Of a DNA stretch of 64,000 bases, positions 36,901 to 60,684 are shown piece by piece (the first letter of the stretch is position 1; each line of letters starts with the position of its first letter). A model generated the notes under the pieces. The model was not told the DNA's origin and ran no database searches. It saw nothing but the letters and a program-made list of their open reading frames with translations. This DNA comes from Herpomyces periplanetae (Eukaryota; Ascomycota; Laboulbeniomycetes; Herpomycetales; Herpomycetaceae). Where the stretch lies: positions 62,001-126,000 of the forward strand of contig WMKJ01000014.1 in assembly GCA_009733715.1 (NCBI GenBank), in the 5' to 3' direction. Both the position numbers and the translations under genes were made by a program.

Positions 36901-39900
36901 CCTTGTTTCATTGCAAGTTTAGCTTGTCAGTCGCGGTCTATCATTGGAATTACAATTTCTATGTGGAATTCGGTATTCTCAGAGGCGCAATTCATCCCCA
37001 TCTATTCTGCTAAGTTAATAAAATTTCTCACCGTATACCCTTTGCGAAATCGCCTATTTTTGCCTAATTTTCACACTGATCACTCGACCCTACCGCCACC
37101 ACAACTGTCCCTAAAGTTGCCCGATTCAGTCACCACATCAAAGATTAAGATTCACGAAAAGTTATCCACGTGGAATTGCCCTCTCACTTATTTTGAGCGT
37201 GAATCGGCTCATCGCACATTTTTTGAATCTACGGAGTTTACATCTTTCCTAGAATCAGGTTCGGCCACTCAACTCCCTTCATTGTTTTTCTCTTCTTTCG
37301 ATAATGATCTACTCCGAGACTTGGACTTGATCGCATCATTTACTCCCGAGGGTTCGTGTCCTCTCCTACTACCTATAATAGGAGAGTATTCTATCTGTAG
37401 TGACCATCGTTCAACTACTACTACTACGCCTGCTGCAACTAATACTAATACTACGTCTATTACTACAACCATTACGAGTACTACAACTACTGGGGTCTAC
37501 GGTAAACAGACTCACGGTAAAAGTATCGAAAAGTCCACCTGCAATAAATTGTTTGATAAGAAAAAAAATTCATCAGTGGGTTCAACCCTTCCTTCAGAAA
37601 CATTTTCTTCAGCAGCCAGTATGCTGGATGGCAACTCCCTTGAAGTTTTATCATTAACGGCCGCCGATGATCCCACGTTGGAGCCTTTCTTTCGCGATTC
37701 CCCTTACTCTTCTCCTACTAATCCGGATTATTTTTCCCATAAAAATTCTTTACTCGATTTAGAATTTTCAGACTCATGTAACCTCTCTTTTCACGTTCCC
37801 TCATCACCACCAGATCGTGTTAACGTATTCGCAACGGACTGTGCAGCAGTAGACTCAATTTTTGAGTTAACTAACGCTACTTCATCGTCGGATTTAACCT
37901 TATTTGAACCAGCTTTTGATTATCTTGCGAATAACCAAGCGTCCATGTTATTACCATTGGAGGAAGAGTTAATTCAAGCTAAAGTTAACGTGGATATTCG
38001 AACATTTGATTCTGAAAAACTTTTAAATCATGATCTTTCGGAATCCGAGTCTGCTATAGACCGAACATGCGAAAAATCCGGAAGAGTTATGTTAATGACG
38101 GATAGTTTATATGATGATACATTATCACGCGATAAATATTGTAATTTATTTCGATTGGGATCACCTATATCAGAGCCTAATCGTAGTAAATTTATCAATC
38201 CCGTGGACTTGGCTTTGTCCCCAAAATTATCTGGTGATTTAGAAGCTCCTGACAAGAATCTTGCATCGGCTATTGATATAGGTTTATCGGAAATGGATGA
38301 TGTTAATCAGGCTAATTTGGATCATGATCGATGTGACATTGTTTTGTCACGTAGAGTAAAGCATGAGGGAGACTTATGCAGGATATCATCGTTAGGGGGA
38401 GATGATGTTAAACTAGGATTTTCCGTGAGAGATCCCAATGAGAATGCAGGGACAAATTTAACGAAATCTGAAGGAGTTGCTACAGATATTGATGATAAAT
38501 CAAGTAGCTATTCCTTACGGAGTCGCAATGTTAACGTTAAGGTGGAAGACACAAATAATTTTGTTCCAAGGCCTCGACCTGGTCGGGGGAAACGGAAGCG
38601 GTGTTCATCGGGGTCAGCAATGACATTATCGCCGTCAGGAGGTATAAATAAGGGTAAGAAAGTAGCGCCGGTGCGCAAACGAAGACGAAAGGGAACGATA
38701 AGTAAGGATACTGTTCAAAAGGTTGCCATTGAATATATTGAGATATCTAGTGGATCAGAAGATGAGATTTTGGCACTTGTTCCAAAGCAAGCGGCATCTC
38801 GTACTACGATAACTATACCATCTCGGGCGATGCTTAAGCCCCCATTACCCGTACCTACACCATCAACGGCAGGGACTGCGACAGAAACAGTAACGACAAC
38901 GACAACACCTTCATTGAATTTAGATATAGTATGTGATGAACATGCAGCTGTGCCTGTTAAGCGGAAGAGGGGTAGACCACGCAGGAATCCACTTCCTGAA
39001 GTGAACAGGAGTGATGGCGTATTTAAGGATGACTTGACGGGAAATTCTGTAGAAGCGAGTCGTTCAGGAACGTTAGAAGAACGGCGTACAAATGGACTAG
39101 TGGCAGCGCCAACGTTGAATGTTGTATCAGAGAGATCAGCGGATGAACCATCCACGAATTATCGGTCAAGGACAATTCCCCGCAAGAAAGTTAGTGAAGG
39201 GGGAGGGGGAGCAGGAGGTAATAAAAGAGCATTTGAATCTATTATCGGAAGTGATGGATATGATAGTGATTTAAACTTTGGTATGAGCAAGCGAGCATGT
39301 CAAAAGTCTTACATTAATGAGAAGAGGTCTGCATACTCTACACGTTCAACGGATGAATCGTGTAGTACAATTTTACCATCTGGATTAGCATGTGAAGAGG
39401 AAAGGACTCTACCACATTTATCGATACGATACGGTAATGAATGTGACAATAATATGATTGATGAAGCATCGGAGCAGTTAATTACAACATGTGTATCTAG
39501 ACCACATTCGACGAATTCAAAAGGGAAACGTGGACGTAAAAAAAAGGAAAAACTTCCCCTTGCCGTGGTTCACCGATCAGTATCCGATGGCAATTTAGAG
39601 TTAACTAGTAATTCACATGGTGAAATACGGACAAGATCAAAATCATTACATGAACCATGGTATGATAATACTACACAAGTTAATTCAACATATAATGAAA
39701 GTGTAAATGCTGTTCCACGTCGTTCGTCTAGCAGTCCTATACCATTACGACTATTTGGAATTATTTCCAATTTGGGATCGCCTTTCAAATTTTCGTGGCG
39801 CCACAATCGCGAAGCGGCCTCCGCCACACCTCCCGCCACAGATTCCAGCGTGGCGCATCACCTCCACACCGATTTCTGTGGCGCAGCATCTACCCTGCCC

Positions 39901-40161
39901 GATATTAGTCCGACCTGCAGTCCTAGCACGGCCACAACTACCCCTGCTCTCGTTTCAGTTGTTACTTCGTCGTCTGCTCCATCGTCTGTGTGTGCGTCTG
40001 CATCTACTTCTTCCACCTCTACGCCCTTATCGTCGGCCACTACCACCGAGTATAATACGGGGGATAAATCGGGTTCCAGTTGGCTAGTTCTTCAACCTAA
40101 AAATCTTTTAGCTCGAGTTACTGGATTCGTACGGGATTATCGTGGGTTTTCAGATAAATGA
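33937..40161 (+). CDS. RIF1: Rif1, telomere/replication-timing and PP1-targeting protein
   Basis: Two exons, 33937-36516 and 36724-40161 (GTAAGT donor, TTCAG acceptor), give 2005 residues. Rif1 restrains origin firing by bringing PP1 to the replicative helicase, limits end resection and acts at telomeres. The N-terminal half is the Rif1 HEAT-repeat domain (EVYALIIDDFITALNVRQTS, LYYTLAPTAEYEQIDVYWME). Two PP1-docking motifs precede it: KKVAF (RVxF type, residues 56-60) and SILK (97-100). The C-terminal half is disordered and carries AT-hook-like elements (KRGRPRRNP near 38970 and KRGRKKK near 39530) and a possible SUMO-interacting stretch, YIEISSGSEDE, near 38735. The start is the first ATG in frame. 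Two GC-rich islands lie inside the coding sequence (about 36080-36235 and 39795-39905). Confidence 0.88.
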
Positions 40162-40728
40162 TACAATGATTTTTAATTGTCAGACCCAAAGATATACACA
40201 TACACGTACGTCGACACATTTTCCCATTCAAGCACTATGTTAGCCGTGCCATACGTGTACGAATATACATACACTTACACCTACGCTTACATCTACATAT
40301 ATACATTTACGTTTACGCATATGCATGCGCATACTCACCTCCACACACCCGCAAGCTGACGTCTACCCCCTACTACTAGCCCTCCTCTCTGCCCTTATTC
40401 CTTCCCGTGCAAACCGCGCCAACAGGATCCCTTATACTCAACCAGCTAGTCGCCAAAAGGCATAATCATTCAATTTCCTAGACTCATTCGTTCCTCATCT
40501 TTACATTTTTCACATTCCCCGTCCCCGTGCGGCCCGAAACTTCTCCCCGTTGCCCGTGGCGCAGGCCAGACTATTGTCGCCACACAAGGTCGGGCCGATA
40601 ATATTCCGCATATATCCAAACGAGATTTTGCGGCAATTTGAACGAATTTTTATTTTTTTCTCCCTCTCCTAAATTTCATCTCTTTAACTATCATTAACTT
40701 AAACTTTGTTCTATTCAATTTCGACAAT
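40162..40728. other. Intergenic between RIF1 and the epimerase, with a pyrimidine-rich leader
   Basis: Holds an imperfect six-base-period tract (about 40194-40350), then a GC-rich patch (about 40510-40600) with GTGGCG and CGCCAC words, then a CT-rich leader up to the ATG at 40729. Confidence 0.45.
40194..40350. repeat. Degenerate TACACN/TACATN hexamer tract
   Basis: Reading the tract in frame gives runs of alternating Thr-Tyr and Tyr-Ile, which shows the six-base period (TACACT, TACACC, TACATC, TACATA types). It lies just 3' of RIF1. Confidence 0.55.
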
Positions 40729-41977
40729 ATGGTTGAACGAGCTCATAAACCCGCTTCGGTTAGCATTATACCTAAAACAACCAAATCTTTGGCTGTTGTC
40801 GACCTTTCACCAGCGCGAAATCTCGTTCATGCGACGCTTCCATCCGGCGATAGTATCGATGTTAGCTTATTCGGAGCTACAATTGTTTCATGGCGTACTA
40901 AGGACCTAGAAGCTTTATGGTTCAGTGAAGCTGCCAAACTGGATGGAACAGCTCCCATACGAGGTGGTATTCCCATTGTTTTTCCTGTTTTTGGAAAACC
41001 TCCGAAAGGACATGCTACAGAGGCTTTACCTCAACATGGCTTTGCGCGTACGGCCCGTTGGGAATTTCTCGGTAGTAACACATCGGAACATATTCTCCAA
41101 AGTTGCAATACATCATCAGTTAATGTCAAACCTAGCGAAGAAATTTCTCATCTTAACAAACATGACGGTGATGATGATAATACTACTACGGTTACTGACG
41201 TGGGGGACGCCACCCATGATTCTATAAAACTGGATTTTGGCTTGTTTAGTGATGCGTTAAAAGATGATGTACGTCGAGCCTGGCCATTCCGCTTTGGTTT
41301 AGTGTACACTATTACACTATCACATTCTTCTCTTCGTACTTCACTTACCGTTCAAAATACGGGTAATGAAGTCTTTGAGTTCAATGCACTCTTTCATAAT
41401 TATCTTTGTATTAACGTAAGTTAACAAGGCTTTTTTGCATTTTCACCACATTTATTTCTTTATATTTGTACATTGTGTATCAAGCTAAGCTATTTACTTT
41501 TACATTTCATCTAACTTGAATTTAAAGGATATTTATACAACGTCAGTTTCAGGATTGGGATCGGTAACCTATATGGATAAACTTCTCACTACGAATATTT
41601 CAAATCCGTATAAAGCCGAACAGACTACACATGAACTATCCGTTGTTGGGCCTATTGATCGAGTGTACAGTCTTAACGATTCACACGTTACTTCGTCATC
41701 GCCGCGACTCATCAGTGTTAACTTCGTTAATCATGAACAAGATGGGGTAAATGAACGTAAACGTTTCGATATACACCGCTATAATTTACCCGATGTAGTC
41801 TTATGGAATCCTTGGCGTGAAGGTGCAGCAGCCATAGCTGATTTAATGCCTAAAGGTGATGCACCCACGGGTTACCGTAGTTTTTTATGCGTTGAACCTG
41901 GACACGTTCATTCATGGGTTTCCTTGGAGCCTGGTGAAAGTTGGGAAGGCTCACAAATTATTAAATACGTACAATAA
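40729..41977 (+). CDS. Glucose-6-phosphate 1-epimerase (YMR099C family)
   Basis: Two exons, 40729-41415 and 41528-41977, give 378 residues. The intron has a GTAAGT donor and CTAAC branch. The enzyme interconverts the alpha and beta anomers of hexose 6-phosphates; it is an aldose-1-epimerase-like beta-sandwich protein. Support: VSLFGATIVSWRTKDLEALW, the PIRGGIPIVFPVFGKP motif, the active-site LPQHGFARTARWEF (catalytic His), VVLWNPWREGAAAIADL and LCVEPGHV (catalytic Glu). A low-complexity, Asp/Thr-rich insertion of about 50 residues sits between the two active-site regions. The splice joins NYLCIN to DIYTTSVSGL, as in the family. The gene follows RIF1 on the same strand. Confidence 0.9.
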
Positions 41978-43495: not shown

Positions 43496-43601
43496 TATAA
43501 ACATCACCAGCGTGATTTGTGATTTAATCTCCCGTATCAAGTTCCCTAAGTATGGAAAAATGAGTAGCCATTTTCCCTTTAGCACTAAATGTTTAGCATA
43601 C

Positions 43602-44134
43602 TTACAAGTCAAGTTGAACACCGTTGCTGATCCCGTAGTCGTCTAGGGTTAGCGTGTCCTTAAAGGGTCGTTCACCCTGACGTTTTAGCATAATTTCGTG
43701 AGGTTGCCGACCGATACGGGCAGAGACGAGTTTTTTAAAGTGGCCTACCCAGTAAAAGAGGCCCGTTAGACGTGGCGTGTTGATAGCATGTGCGCGCACA
43801 TTCACATACCTATCGTATCACTCGGCAGACACGGAATCTGCGTCTTTGTACCGAGTCGATCGTTCACGTAGATTAGAATATACGTTTGTCGGGGCCTTCG
43901 CGGAGACGTGGAATTTTGTGATGGGGAGCGGGAGCGCGAACGTGAGCCCATGCGCCGCGATGAACGATGTTGTCGTCCCTGCGACAGGGACGAATTACCT
44001 TCTCTCTCTCGTGTTCGCTGCCGTCCTTCTTCCCGCCCCCTTGTTACATATTCTGTCGCATACTGCTCAGATGTGTTGCCTCGTACTGAACTTTTCCCGG
44101 ACGACTTTTTAAAGCGAAGACGATGTGAAGACAT
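43602..44134 (-). CDS. HUB1: Hub1/UBL5 ubiquitin-like splicing modifier with Arg/Ser-rich N-terminal extension
   Basis: Two exons, 44134-43810 and 43744-43602, joined in phase with a CTAAC branch site, give 155 residues. Residues from about 83 are the Hub1 fold: ILIYVNDRLGTKTQIPCLPS, then DTIGGHFKKLVSARIGRQP, then FKDTLTLDDYGISNGVQLDL. Hub1 binds spliceosomal Snu66 noncovalently and influences 5' splice-site choice. Family members are usually about 73 residues and begin right at this domain; here no Met precedes it, and the frame continues back through an 82-residue segment rich in Arg and Ser (SSRRMGSRSRSRSPSQ) to ATG 44134. The chain also stops before the usual C-terminal double tyrosine. 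The stop codon overlaps a perfect GTAAGT, so a further short exon is possible, but I see none that restores YY. Confidence 0.85.
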
Positions 44135-44313: not shown

Positions 44314-45219
44314 TTAAGCACCACTAGGTTGTAGCCATACGCTAACAATATGGTTTGAATCGGTCGGAGCATTTTGCTCTAGACAAAAGTCCCAACGGGC
44401 AAGCTTAACTATAGGCGAGAGAGACGCTGTATGCTCATCTAAGGTTTGTGAATCATCCACAGCGACAGTAGCAGATAGTGTATCGTAAACCATTTGTCGA
44501 CCGGGATGCATAAGAAGCATGTCATAGAGTAATGAAGGGCAAGCCCAGGGTGGACCACCCGTTGAAAAGGGTTTGTCTGTGGGAAATTCGGCGCAGATCA
44601 AGCGGCCTGAATCGGGATTAATGAGTTGAGCATATCGTTTGGACCAAGCCGGGCGAAGAGGGGGATTCAATGCACACAAAAACTTATAATCAAATATAAC
44701 ATCCCAAAATTTCCTTTGCGATACTAAAGAATTTTCCCATTCGCTAGAAAAGAAGTCTCCTTCAAGAAATTTGACCTCTCCACGACCATATTTGGTTAAC
44801 GGTGTCGGGTATCCATCCCAATCACTTTCGATAATACGTTGTAATTCGACATTACACGCTTCAACAGCCGATGAACTAACATCTAGGCCAAGTGCATCAT
44901 AACCCAAACATGAAAGAAAAACTGCATCATAACCACGTCCACATCCGGGTACGAGGGCTCGAAGTCTTTGACCATTAGATTGAACGGGAGGCGGAAATTT
45001 CAGGTTAGACTTTTCAGGTGAAATGTTGCTAGTATTGTTAACAAATATATCCGTTAACGCAGGATGAGGCCCACCACGATCCCAGGGTGTATAATTTTGT
45101 TGCCATAACTCGTCCCAAGCATTGTTCACCTTACCACGATCTAAGTTAGGGACGTTTTGTGAAATGAATTTAACGGCATGCTCAACCGTAGGGTCATCTG
45201 CCGAACTGCCTAGATTCAT
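44314..45219 (-). CDS. TPMT-family (thiol/thiocyanate) S-methyltransferase
   Basis: A 301-residue single-exon SAM-dependent methyltransferase. The N-terminal WDELWQQNYTPWDRGGPHPA is the substrate-side motif of the TPMT-like family. The SAM-binding loop is RALVPGCGRGYDAVFLSCLG followed by ALGLDVS, and VKFLEGDFF, WDVIFDYKFLCALNP and GRLICAEFPTDKPFSTGGPP complete the core. Fungal relatives are annotated as thiol or thiocyanate methyltransferases, probably detoxifying sulfide, thiols or halides. The substrate cannot be read from sequence. The start is the first ATG, about 36 residues before the conserved Trp. It lies upstream of HUB1 on the same strand, 179 bases away. Confidence 0.88.
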   Translation of the reverse strand: MNLGSSADDPTVEHAVKFISQNVPNLDRGKVNNAWDELWQQNYTPWDRGGPHPALTDIFVNNTSNISPEKSNLKFPPPVQSNGQRLRALVPGCGRGYDAVFLSCLGYDALGLDVSSSAVEACNVELQRIIESDWDGYPTPLTKYGRGEVKFLEGDFFSSEWENSLVSQRKFWDVIFDYKFLCALNPPLRPAWSKRYAQLINPDSGRLICAEFPTDKPFSTGGPPWACPSLLYDMLLMHPGRQMVYDTLSATVAVDDSQTLDEHTASLSPIVKLARWDFCLEQNAPTDSNHIVSVWLQPSGA

Positions 45220-45346: not shown

Positions 45347-46525
45347 TCAGTCAACTTGTTCAACTAAAGCATTATAATGCTCGCCGAGACCGAATCCATG
45401 TTTGTAATAGGCTAACCAAACTTGGGGAAAACTTGCATGAGTAGATTTGGAAGATTCTTCATCCACAGCAGGTATATGATCTACACGACCGGATCCGTGT
45501 ATAATGTTAATGTTAATTAAGAATGACCGAGTAATGGCTTGTAGCTCAAGATGTCCACCCCATTCAGCAGTTGAACGAATTTTGCGTACATACGTATCCA
45601 AAGGTTCCTCTAGAAAAGGAGCAAAATCATCGGGATGATTTGATATGTAATCCGCGGCAATGTATCGTAATTTTTGGTAAGGTAATAGAGAAGAAAAAGA
45701 TGTGGATGCACAGGATGTTTTACCCGAGGTCAAAGTGGTAGATGAGGATGGTAATTCAATGGGAATGTTCATTGATTGAAGACATGTTGCAATGGATGAA
45801 TAAAGGCAATTTCCATCAGCTCCTACTTCAATTTCACGTAGACCTCGTCGAGTAAACTCAGTTTGCATAACTGATACTTCTTGTTGACGTAAATCGGGTA
45901 AATTGGCAGCTTCACGGGCAGCTTCTTCTATAGCGGCGTCTCGTTCAGCAGCCCGACGTGCTAAACGTGCACGATGTCGATTAACCTTTCGTTTACCCGA
46001 CGACGACGTTGACACTTGGGCTGATGGATTAACGGATGATGAAGTATTATCAACTGGTATATTGGTTAGCATAAGACGAGCTAAATTAGCGGTCAACGTT
46101 TGGTTACGGTCCCGCCGTTTGTCATTTAAAGGATACGTATCATTATGTACAGAACTAGTATCCGATGTGGTTGACGATGAAGATGGTGTTAAAGGTGCTA
46201 TTGTAGATTTATCTGTTTGTTCACAATTCATTATACTAACGGGCTGTACATTAGATTCATGAGATGACGGTGATAATGGTAGATTTGGATGAGCCGATTC
46301 AAACTCCCTAATCTCCCGAGCATGTCGATCCCGAAGTTCACGTTCCATAGCTTGACATTCTTCATTTATCATATCTTTATGGGACGTGTTAGATATATTA
46401 TTGTTGGAATTTTTTGAAGAATTCGTCTTTTTACTCCCCGATTTATTAGCCAGGCTAGTTTTTTTCTTAACTTCATACTTCAATTGCCGCAATTCCTTGC
46501 GGTGACGCGTCAGTAAATCATCCAT
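45347..46525 (-). CDS. OTU2: OTU-domain deubiquitinase Otu2/OTUD6B
   Basis: A 392-residue protein if it starts at MDDLLTRHRKELRQLKYEVK, where the family begins. The N-terminal coiled coil continues in EECQAMERELRDRHAREIRE. After a Ser/Thr-rich linker comes the basic KRKVNRHRARLARRAAERDA segment, then the OTU core: EVGADGNCLYSSIA with catalytic Asp and Cys, YIAADYISNHPDDFAPFLEE, WGGHLELQAITRSFLINI, and the C-terminal HYNALVE with catalytic His. Otu2 removes ubiquitin from ribosomal protein eS7 during recycling. The frame stays open upstream to an ATG at 46936, adding 137 residues with a poly-His stretch, but that start would leave only 63 bases to the divergent GPI15 ATG and would cross a GC-rich, E-box-bearing island. 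I therefore prefer 46525. Confidence 0.88.
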   Translation of the reverse strand: MDDLLTRHRKELRQLKYEVKKKTSLANKSGSKKTNSSKNSNNNISNTSHKDMINEECQAMERELRDRHAREIREFESAHPNLPLSPSSHESNVQPVSIMNCEQTDKSTIAPLTPSSSSTTSDTSSVHNDTYPLNDKRRDRNQTLTANLARLMLTNIPVDNTSSSVNPSAQVSTSSSGKRKVNRHRARLARRAAERDAAIEEAAREAANLPDLRQQEVSVMQTEFTRRGLREIEVGADGNCLYSSIATCLQSMNIPIELPSSSTTLTSGKTSCASTSFSSLLPYQKLRYIAADYISNHPDDFAPFLEEPLDTYVRKIRSTAEWGGHLELQAITRSFLININIIHGSGRVDHIPAVDEESSKSTHASFPQVWLAYYKHGFGLGEHYNALVEQVD

Positions 46526-46999
46526 ACCCCCACCCTTCTTAACATGACACGAGGATTCACTTTTTCGATTAAACGCAGACGCAAATGTAAACGTTAAAGT
46601 ATCCGGTAACGAACTATTCAGCAACGATAACCATTCTCGCGTCAAAACTTCGCATCGCAAACTTTTTACGCCACTGGCACCGCCACCGCCACACTCAGAA
46701 CACGTGCTAGGGCGGGACTGCGCCACGAGCGTGCCACGCTTCGCATATTCATTTTTCCGTGATTCCGATTCCCAAAAAGGAAATTTTTCACGAAGTGCCG
46801 ACCGGCTGTGATGATGATTTTGATGATGTTGATGATGATTTTGATGTCGATGGTGATGTCCAGGTGTTAACAAAGTGTTGAGTACGGTTGACTGTCGACA
46901 TGTTTTACACGATTTATCACGATTAAATAAATCCATGCTTCAAAGTTAGTTAATATTTATGCGCGTATGTTAACCGACTAGTGCTTCGGTTTGTTCCTA
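46526..46999. promoter_or_regulatory. Divergent promoter of OTU2 and GPI15, GC island and ATG/CAT triplet tract
   Basis: Between the preferred start codons. It contains a GC-rich island at about 46670-46745 with several CGCCAC words and a CACGTG at 46701-46706. A GATGAT/GATTTT-type triplet tract at about 46809-46860 reads as poly-His on the minus strand. If the longer OTU2 frame (to 46936) is translated, most of this would be coding. Confidence 0.45.
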
Positions 47000-57005: not shown

Positions 57006-57151
57006 CGGGGTGGGGTGAGGTGGGGTGTAGAGAGGTGAGGTGAGGTGAGGTGTGGTGAGGTGTGGTGTGGTGTGGTGTGGTGTGGTGTGGTGTGGTGTGG
57101 TGTAGTGTGGTGTAGTGTGATGGGGTGAGGTAAGGTGAGGTATAGTTAGTA
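57006..57151 (+). repeat. (TGTGG)n/(TGAGG)n pentanucleotide microsatellite
   Basis: About 145 bases of five-base units, mostly TGTGG in the centre (57051-57110) with TGAGG variants at the edges, so all G and T on one strand at its core. It is imperfect at the ends, suggesting age. Confidence 0.9.
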
Positions 57152-58995: not shown

Positions 58996-59078
58996 CGGGT
59001 ATGGGTATGGGTATGGATGTGGATATGGATGTGGATGTGGATGTGGATGTGGATATGGATATGGATATGGATATGGAT
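58996..59078 (+). repeat. (GGATGT/GGATAT)n hexanucleotide repeat
   Basis: About 83 bases of six-base units with GGTATG at the 5' edge, then GGATGT and GGATAT mixed. It yields an apparent Pro-Tyr/Pro-His frame on the minus strand, not a gene. Confidence 0.9.
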
Positions 59079-60630
59079 GAGTATGGCAATGGGTAAAGAC
59101 TGTGGAATGAATGTTATCGGATGTGGAAGGTAAGTACAAACAATAGAATTTTATGGTAGGAACAGTGAAATGTGATCACTGCCTCATATTTTCCTGGCGA
59201 TACCAATGATTGACCTATAATCCGGATGAGTGGATTTAAATGGTATACACATACGTGTGCAGGTTCATCCAACCAATTTCAAATGAATACGTAAGTGATG
59301 TTATAGTATACACTCATAACCGTATTTCTTGGGGTTTGGTTGATAGTAATACAATACTGTTAGATAGTTCCACCTTGGTTAGCGAGTATTGACTTTGCGT
59401 ATGTTTAACTAGTGAAACTTACGGCAAACATTTAACGCAATGGGTCGAGTGACACGTTATTGATAGAGTTTGTGGAAAAGTGAAATTAAAGGATGTTAAG
59501 TGTAAATAAAGAGATGAATTAGTGTACTGGTACAATAAGGTTTAAGAAGTGTACGTGAAAACAATGCAATAATTTAGGGATGGGGAATTGTTTAGGGACA
59601 TTTAACAAGTTGTAGCATGAGATTTAATTTTGGGTAGGTCGGATGGAAGGGAATGGTGTAGGTTAATGTAGCGAAATGAGACTTGGGAGTTTGGATAAAC
59701 TGGGAAGCATGAAGTAATTTGGAGGGTGTGAATCAGATGAGTTTGTACGATTGAGTAACTTGACGGAAAATTAATGCGAAGTAATATCGGGAAGGGAGGA
59801 AACCAAAGTGGATAATGGCGATAAAGGAAGGCGAAAGTTTGAGATAGCGTGGGTAAATGTATAGGGACGAATGAGGTAGCGCGGGTTGGCTTTGGAAGAG
59901 AAGTAGGTTAATGGTAAGACTTTAAAAAAGTGTATACGTGTACTTTAGAAGAGAAAGAGGGGGAGAAGGTTGGTTGGTTGGTTGGAGGGATGGAGGTATG
60001 GATGGGTTAGACAAAACCATACGATAACTTGACACAGGTGTTGCCCTAATTTGCGAGGTGGAATGAGTGATGGTAAGGTTTACTTGAAAGTATAATGTAC
60101 ACTTTTAGCTTAGTTTTAACGTGAGTTACACTTTTTATTTTTTGTATAATGTTCTGGTAAGGCAAAGAGAACGTAACTAGATTAGAATGAATTATAGGAA
60201 TGGGGTGGGTGTGAAAGGATGGACGGAAGGGTCAGGGGAATGAAATGTTGTGAAAATTTTAGTGTGATTTGAAGGTAAGTTTGGCAAAGAGATTGATTAT
60301 ATTTAGTTATGCAAATGAATGAAAGTTATAAGTCAAGTTTAACCTATAGAAATAGAAAGGAATTGGGGAGGAGTGTAGGTAAGAGAGCATAAGGAAGAGG
60401 AGGACAAAGGAGTTTGTATGATTGAATAAATTGGTTAGATTGGGGGAGGTAAGGTATGAAGGGTGTAAGTGCGGAGTAGGAAAGGAGGATGTAGAGTGAG
60501 ATATAGATAGTAACTAAATTAACAATAATTAGATGGGAAGGGAAATAAAGCCGTTATTACGTGGCAGATGAAGTTTTAAGGGGAGGAAGTAAAGGATGAT
60601 TGGTATGGGGAGGATAATGAAGGAGAGGAG

Positions 60631-60684
60631 GTGGGCGTGGGCGTGGGCGTGGACGTGGACGTGGACGTGGACGTGGACGTGGGC
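60631..60684 (+). repeat. (GTGGAC/GTGGGC)n hexanucleotide repeat
   Basis: Nine exact six-base units: three GTGGGC, five GTGGAC, one GTGGGC. It is GC-rich in AT-rich surroundings. Confidence 0.95.

Follow-up and report, generated by a model that had tools for sequence, protein, structure and literature searches.

The gene described here is situated on the minus strand of the window (the whole stretch of 64,000 nucleotides that was analysed) and is, on the evidence of its sequence, Hub1/UBL5. It is predicted to comprise three exons coding for 161 residues, with a probably disordered Arg/Ser-rich extension, a ubiquitin-fold domain and the tail ELDTGD, and the product very probably acts as Hub1 does elsewhere. 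Most likely it is an ordinary functional Hub1 of its clade; by comparison with its relatives, the window protein is one divergent member of a widespread Hub1 variant.

All three exons are read from the minus strand. Exon 1 (43810..44134) extends from the ATG at 44134 up to and including base 1 of the Gly codon of DTIG and contains the 84-residue extension and the beginning of the Hub1 domain. It is followed by a predicted intron of 65 nt (43745..43809, minus strand, GTATGT...GTAG), for which we recovered the coordinates given in the preliminary description and whose removal joins DTIG to HFKKLV, so that the same junction as in the relatives is formed. Exon 2 (43606..43744) carries the remaining Hub1 domain up to ...GVQLD together with two bases of the next Leu codon. 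The TAA at the following GTAAGT had been taken as the end of a protein of 155 residues. This TAA (43602-43604), however, belongs to a second predicted intron of 60 nt (43546..43605, minus strand, GTAAGT...CTTAG), and the 22 bases of exon 3 (43524..43545) complete Leu155 and add ELDTGD and the stop codon TAA. With both introns, as predicted from the sequence, removed, the product has 161 residues and ends ...GVQLDLELDTGD.

Between 30 and 200 nt from the 5' splice site of intron 2 there are two AG acceptors; the first leads precisely to the tail of the relatives (ELDTGD), the second to LNHKSRW. The third exon that had been considered was thus predicted, but a third exon restoring the Tyr-Tyr end was rejected, as both acceptors within the scanned range give other tails. 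We trust exon 3 because the 155-residue query, which predates it, retrieved relatives ending ...GVQLDLELDTGD or in a close variant. This query gave 1061 matches, 120 of which were listed, and all counts of relatives given here rest on those 120.

The proposed identity as Hub1 was confirmed by the succession VNDRLG...DTIG/HFKK...FKDTLTLDDYG and by a sequence search of the PDB, in which the yeast and mammalian Hub1 chains were the best single-domain matches; polyubiquitin chains outranked them solely by summing nine weak repeats. Pfam returned only the general ubiquitin family, at 24.6 bits just below the cut-off of 25.4. A chance open frame is ruled out by the matches to Hub1 in the PDB and to the relatives, and a pseudogene was rejected because the frame is intact across three exons and the tail ELDTGD is identical in 34 of the 120 listed relatives. 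A search of the 13.8-Mb assembly (220 contigs) gave one Hub1 locus. An AlphaFold model of the relative P0035, hence not of the spliced window product, was based on 55 aligned sequences out of the 120 listed relatives. The model has the ubiquitin fold, with blocks at pLDDT 92-96, an extension at about 44-57 and an overall pTM of 0.41. When its fold was searched, ranks 1-7 were all Hub1/UBL5, with 3plv, 3plu and 4pyu first (TM by target 0.88-0.94), the first two being complexes of Hub1 with a Snu66 peptide and the third the human protein.

The window protein thus resembles the yeast and animal Hub1/UBL5 proteins (PDB 1m94, 3plu, 3plv, 4pyu) in its ubiquitin fold, the domain start NDRLG, the residues K13 and D22, and the lack of a C-terminal Gly-Gly, in place of which it ends ELDTGD. 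According to PMC8431670 and PMC10216172 the yeast and animal proteins have about 73 residues and end with YY plus one residue, whereas the window protein has the 84-residue extension and the ELDTGD tail. N7, K13 and D22 (Hub1 numbering) are all present in the window and are kept in 120, 119 and 120 of the 120 listed relatives, respectively. According to PMC10943123, in human B complexes N7 and K13 of UBL5 contact the backbone of the 5' exon and D22 meets R358 of MFAP1, both proteins forming the 5' exon channel. PMC4141198 reports that Hub1 binds the HIND of Snu66 via D22, and that it is found in nuclear speckles, which it reaches even with HIND binding broken. Domains of MFAP1, Snu66 and Prp38 were found in the genome itself. 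The window protein would then be bound non-covalently in the pre-catalytic spliceosome, where together with MFAP1 it may line the path of the 5' exon and so tune the use of 5' splice sites; the contacts of N7, K13 and D22 are inferred from the human structure.

The Arg/Ser-rich extension covers residues 1-83 (about 43886..44134, minus strand), with RSRSRSPS near residues 64-71. The sequence SSRRMGSRSRSRSPSQ lies upstream of, and in frame with, the Hub1 domain. The extension had been reported as 82 residues long; its presence and frame stood, while a recount gave 84 residues. As had been noticed, there is no Met at the usual start of Hub1, this position being occupied by Tyr85. Among the first 82 residues, 38 are Arg or Ser. 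In a shuffle test of this segment, the enrichment of RS/SR pairs over composition that marks a classical RS domain was not seen: there are 8 such pairs against a shuffle mean of 8.9, and 72% of 20,000 composition shuffles reach 8. The extension is Arg/Ser-rich with one (RS)3 run and contains no long patterned RS domain. The earlier term 'RS-like segment' holds for the composition and the (RS)3 run but not for the number of pairs, and 'RS-like' is the most that can be said.

The fusion had appeared peculiar to this protein. This did not hold up, as Arg-rich N-terminal extensions of at least 30 aa occur in 119 of the 120 listed relatives. The suggestion to look for an N-terminal RS segment in relatives was fruitful, with such long Arg-rich extensions found and at least three RS/SR pairs in 98 of the 120. 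A Met start together with an extension of at least 60 aa was present in 102 of the 120; 93 of these 102 have at least three RS/SR pairs. Eight of the 120 lack a Met start and may be incomplete. Position 1 of Hub1 is Met in 77 of the listed relatives; in the other 43 a different residue stands there, in most cases Phe or Tyr, so that the absent start Met is common in the group. Named members among those listed include Aspergillus, Penicillium, Aureobasidium, Venturia, Trichoderma, Colletotrichum and lichen fungi. In the relatives' extensions (P0001-P0120) a GF[KR]WK-like block followed by an RGYR[DN]RSP-like block is recurrent. The GF[KR]WK-like pattern was matched in 90 of the 120 listed relatives and in 88 of the 102 with a Met start and a long extension; in 103 aligned full-length proteins, window included, the motif columns are occupied by G in 85%, F in 91%, W in 83% and K in 90%.

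With the databases' 'Ubiquitin-like modifier HUB1' and 'HubA' of Aspergillus, Aureobasidium, Venturia, Trichoderma and others the window protein shares the Arg-rich extension, the core QGERPFKD and the E[LVI]DTGD-like tail. Those proteins mostly start with RSRSP and carry the GF[KR]WK-like motif, whereas the window extension is shorter and shows no clear motif (a pattern test gave no match within it). Near its start it reads RLRFKK, and the RS run adjoins the domain instead of standing at the start as in the relatives. At positions 3-10 it has SH-x-x-x-F-KK, in which a degenerate GF[KR]WK-like motif may survive. As the extension contains no match to the motif, its function could be weakened. 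An upstream exon bearing the relatives' RSRSP block was rejected, none having been found in three translated frames between the neighbouring stop at 44314 and the ATG at 44134.

A query with yeast Hub1 gave 94 matches, all of at most 128 aa, while the length filter of the 155-residue query favours extended proteins. Five of the 94 have at least 20 residues before the domain (those displayed are not of the RS type), but because proteins longer than 128 aa are excluded this query does not give the frequency of extensions in other lineages. The length filters bias the contrast in extension length between the two queries and leave the contrast in the tails unaffected.

We tentatively regard the extension as a flexible, phosphorylatable arm whose contacts with RS segments or RNA may raise the local concentration of Hub1 at spliceosomes, although we would put this somewhat below an even chance. 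Close to the 5' exon such an arm would provide further contacts of the RS or RNA type, which a kinase may control; recruitment by RS segments to speckles or to the spliceosome, the effect that had been postulated, is plausible. RS-rich segments also occur in human Snu66 and human Prp38, which belong to the same neighbourhood within the spliceosome (PMC4141198, PMC5364666), but there the segment sits on a partner or neighbour of Hub1, whereas in the window it sits on Hub1 itself.

We considered two alternatives for the extension. First, it could be translated as a neutral disordered leader without a role, so that the Hub1 domain alone matters. Yeast Hub1 functions without any extension, the extensions of the relatives vary strongly in length, order and composition in the alignment, the number of RS/SR pairs in the window is at the shuffle mean and the model of P0035 is of low confidence throughout this part. 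A roleless leader fits poorly, however, with the retention of the GF[KR]WK-like motif and of at least three RS/SR pairs in most of the long-extension relatives and with the conserved motif columns given above, and we consider it rather unlikely, if still the strongest competitor. Second, translation could start at Met62, giving a Hub1 of 100 residues with a short RS segment and leaving the remaining exon 1 as 5' leader. The (RS)3 run does follow directly after Met62, the start block customary in the relatives (RSRSP, GF[KR]WK) is absent around Met1, and neither ATG has a purine at -3. Yet upstream the frame stays open as far as 44212, and Met1 is its first, and up to Met62 its sole, in-frame ATG; most of the listed relatives (the 102 of 120 mentioned above) combine a Met start with an extension of at least 60 residues; and the possibly worn motif copy at residues 3-10 would lie within the supposed leader. 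A start at Met62 is therefore very unlikely, and we keep to Met1.

The missing Tyr-Tyr end, also pointed out in the preliminary description, was borne out: the spliced protein contains no YY and ends with the acidic ELDTGD tail. Among the 120 listed relatives, 118 have an ELDTGD-like tail (E[LVI]DTGD-like), two end ...DL and none has YY. With the yeast Hub1 query the reverse was found, YY being present in 83 of 94 matches and a TGD tail in none; the 11 matches without YY include several truncated ones and two with HY or YF. The C-terminal YY is described as conserved in Hub1 in the review PMC8431670, which also reports that its removal or mutation has no effect on Hub1 adducts. Since altering the dipeptide is reported there to be harmless to the adducts, its absence is unlikely to abolish function, and on this reasoning the loss of YY is probably of little consequence. 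We treat YY as usual and not as defining, because the proteins of the clade still bear the name HUB1 in the databases.

Among the 120 listed relatives there are two, P0020 and P0070, whose sequence stops precisely at the residue where the window frame runs into intron 2; this suggests that they have an intron at the same place, which was retained or misread by annotation. That intron 2 acts as a switch, its retention ending the protein at ...VQLDL by way of the stop supplied by GTAAGT itself and Hub1 perhaps controlling this step of its own mRNA, is hardly to be expected: retention would yield a clean shorter protein like these two, one of which represents a cluster of 28 sequences, but they may be gene calls running into the same intron, and it is weak 5' splice sites that Hub1 is known to act on, while intron 2 has a strong one.

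HIND was also sought in the genome. A Snu66/SART-1 frame lies on the minus strand of contig C85 (C85:6793-7692), where the family match covers the C-terminal half only (positions 309-585). The HIND family profile gave one match in the genome, on contig C137, at 12.6 bits and below the cut-off; three of 14 control genomes, none of them fungal, were also matched, and we took the match on C137 as chance. Neither of two HIND regular expressions matched within the Snu66 locus or the 5.9 kb or so beyond it on the upstream side, a search that would overlook a motif interrupted by an intron; HIND may here be lost, divergent or interrupted in this way. It is conceivable, if quite unlikely, that filamentous ascomycetes have remodelled Hub1 into a spliceosome protein of the RS type. 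The extension and the GF[KR]WK-like block in it, perhaps together with the acidic tail, would then attach Hub1 to the pre-catalytic spliceosome under the control of phosphorylation, in addition to or instead of the HIND-Snu66 tether, HIND maybe having been lost in the lineage of the window. Should HIND really be absent, the RS arm is a possible substitute for it.

The PRP38 domain was found in an open frame of 498 aa on the minus strand of contig C131 (about 39381-40799), at residues 22-230, followed by a CCCH finger (347-369) and a RING (436-473). The two latter resemble the spliceosome protein Cwc24/RNF113, and the frame thus looks like a fusion of the Prp38 and Cwc24 genes. Its zinc-finger part had no other match in the genome, and a literature search on such a fusion gave one unrelated review.

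Upstream of the Hub1 gene, on the same strand, lie a thiopurine-methyltransferase-like frame (44314-45219) and a frame for an OTU-type cysteine protease with a long low-complexity N-terminal part (45347-46936). The neighbouring V-ATPase subunit d has a best identity of 63% among the 120 listed of 3603 matches, where the named rows are, judging by their names, filamentous ascomycetes. The genome would accordingly be placed near the filamentous ascomycetes, as a divergent Pezizomycotina-like one with no close relative among the V-ATPase subunit d matches listed. Three short tandem arrays stand within the final 7 kb of the window, a region of rising GC skew: GGTGT (57009-57131, 24.6 copies), TATGGA (59000-59078, 13.2 copies) and GGACGT (60627-60682, 9.3 copies).

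Extended proteins of this kind are already known in so far as the databases name them HUB1. In the literature covered, from which most subscription papers are absent, no description was found of a Hub1 with an RS extension or a TGD tail; closest comes a figure legend in PMC8431670, according to which the core domain of Hub1 is preceded by a few additional residues in certain species. Searches by genus name led mainly to papers on other subjects, several of them on the plant H2B ligase HUB1. In the descriptions of the family, Hub1 is strongly conserved, about 73 residues long and has a YY end. Many filamentous ascomycetes differ from this description, having a long Arg-rich arm with a recurring aromatic motif and an acidic tail. 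The variant, to which the window contributes one divergent member, is a natural test of the roles of the N-terminus and of YY in fungi that are genetically easy and rich in introns.
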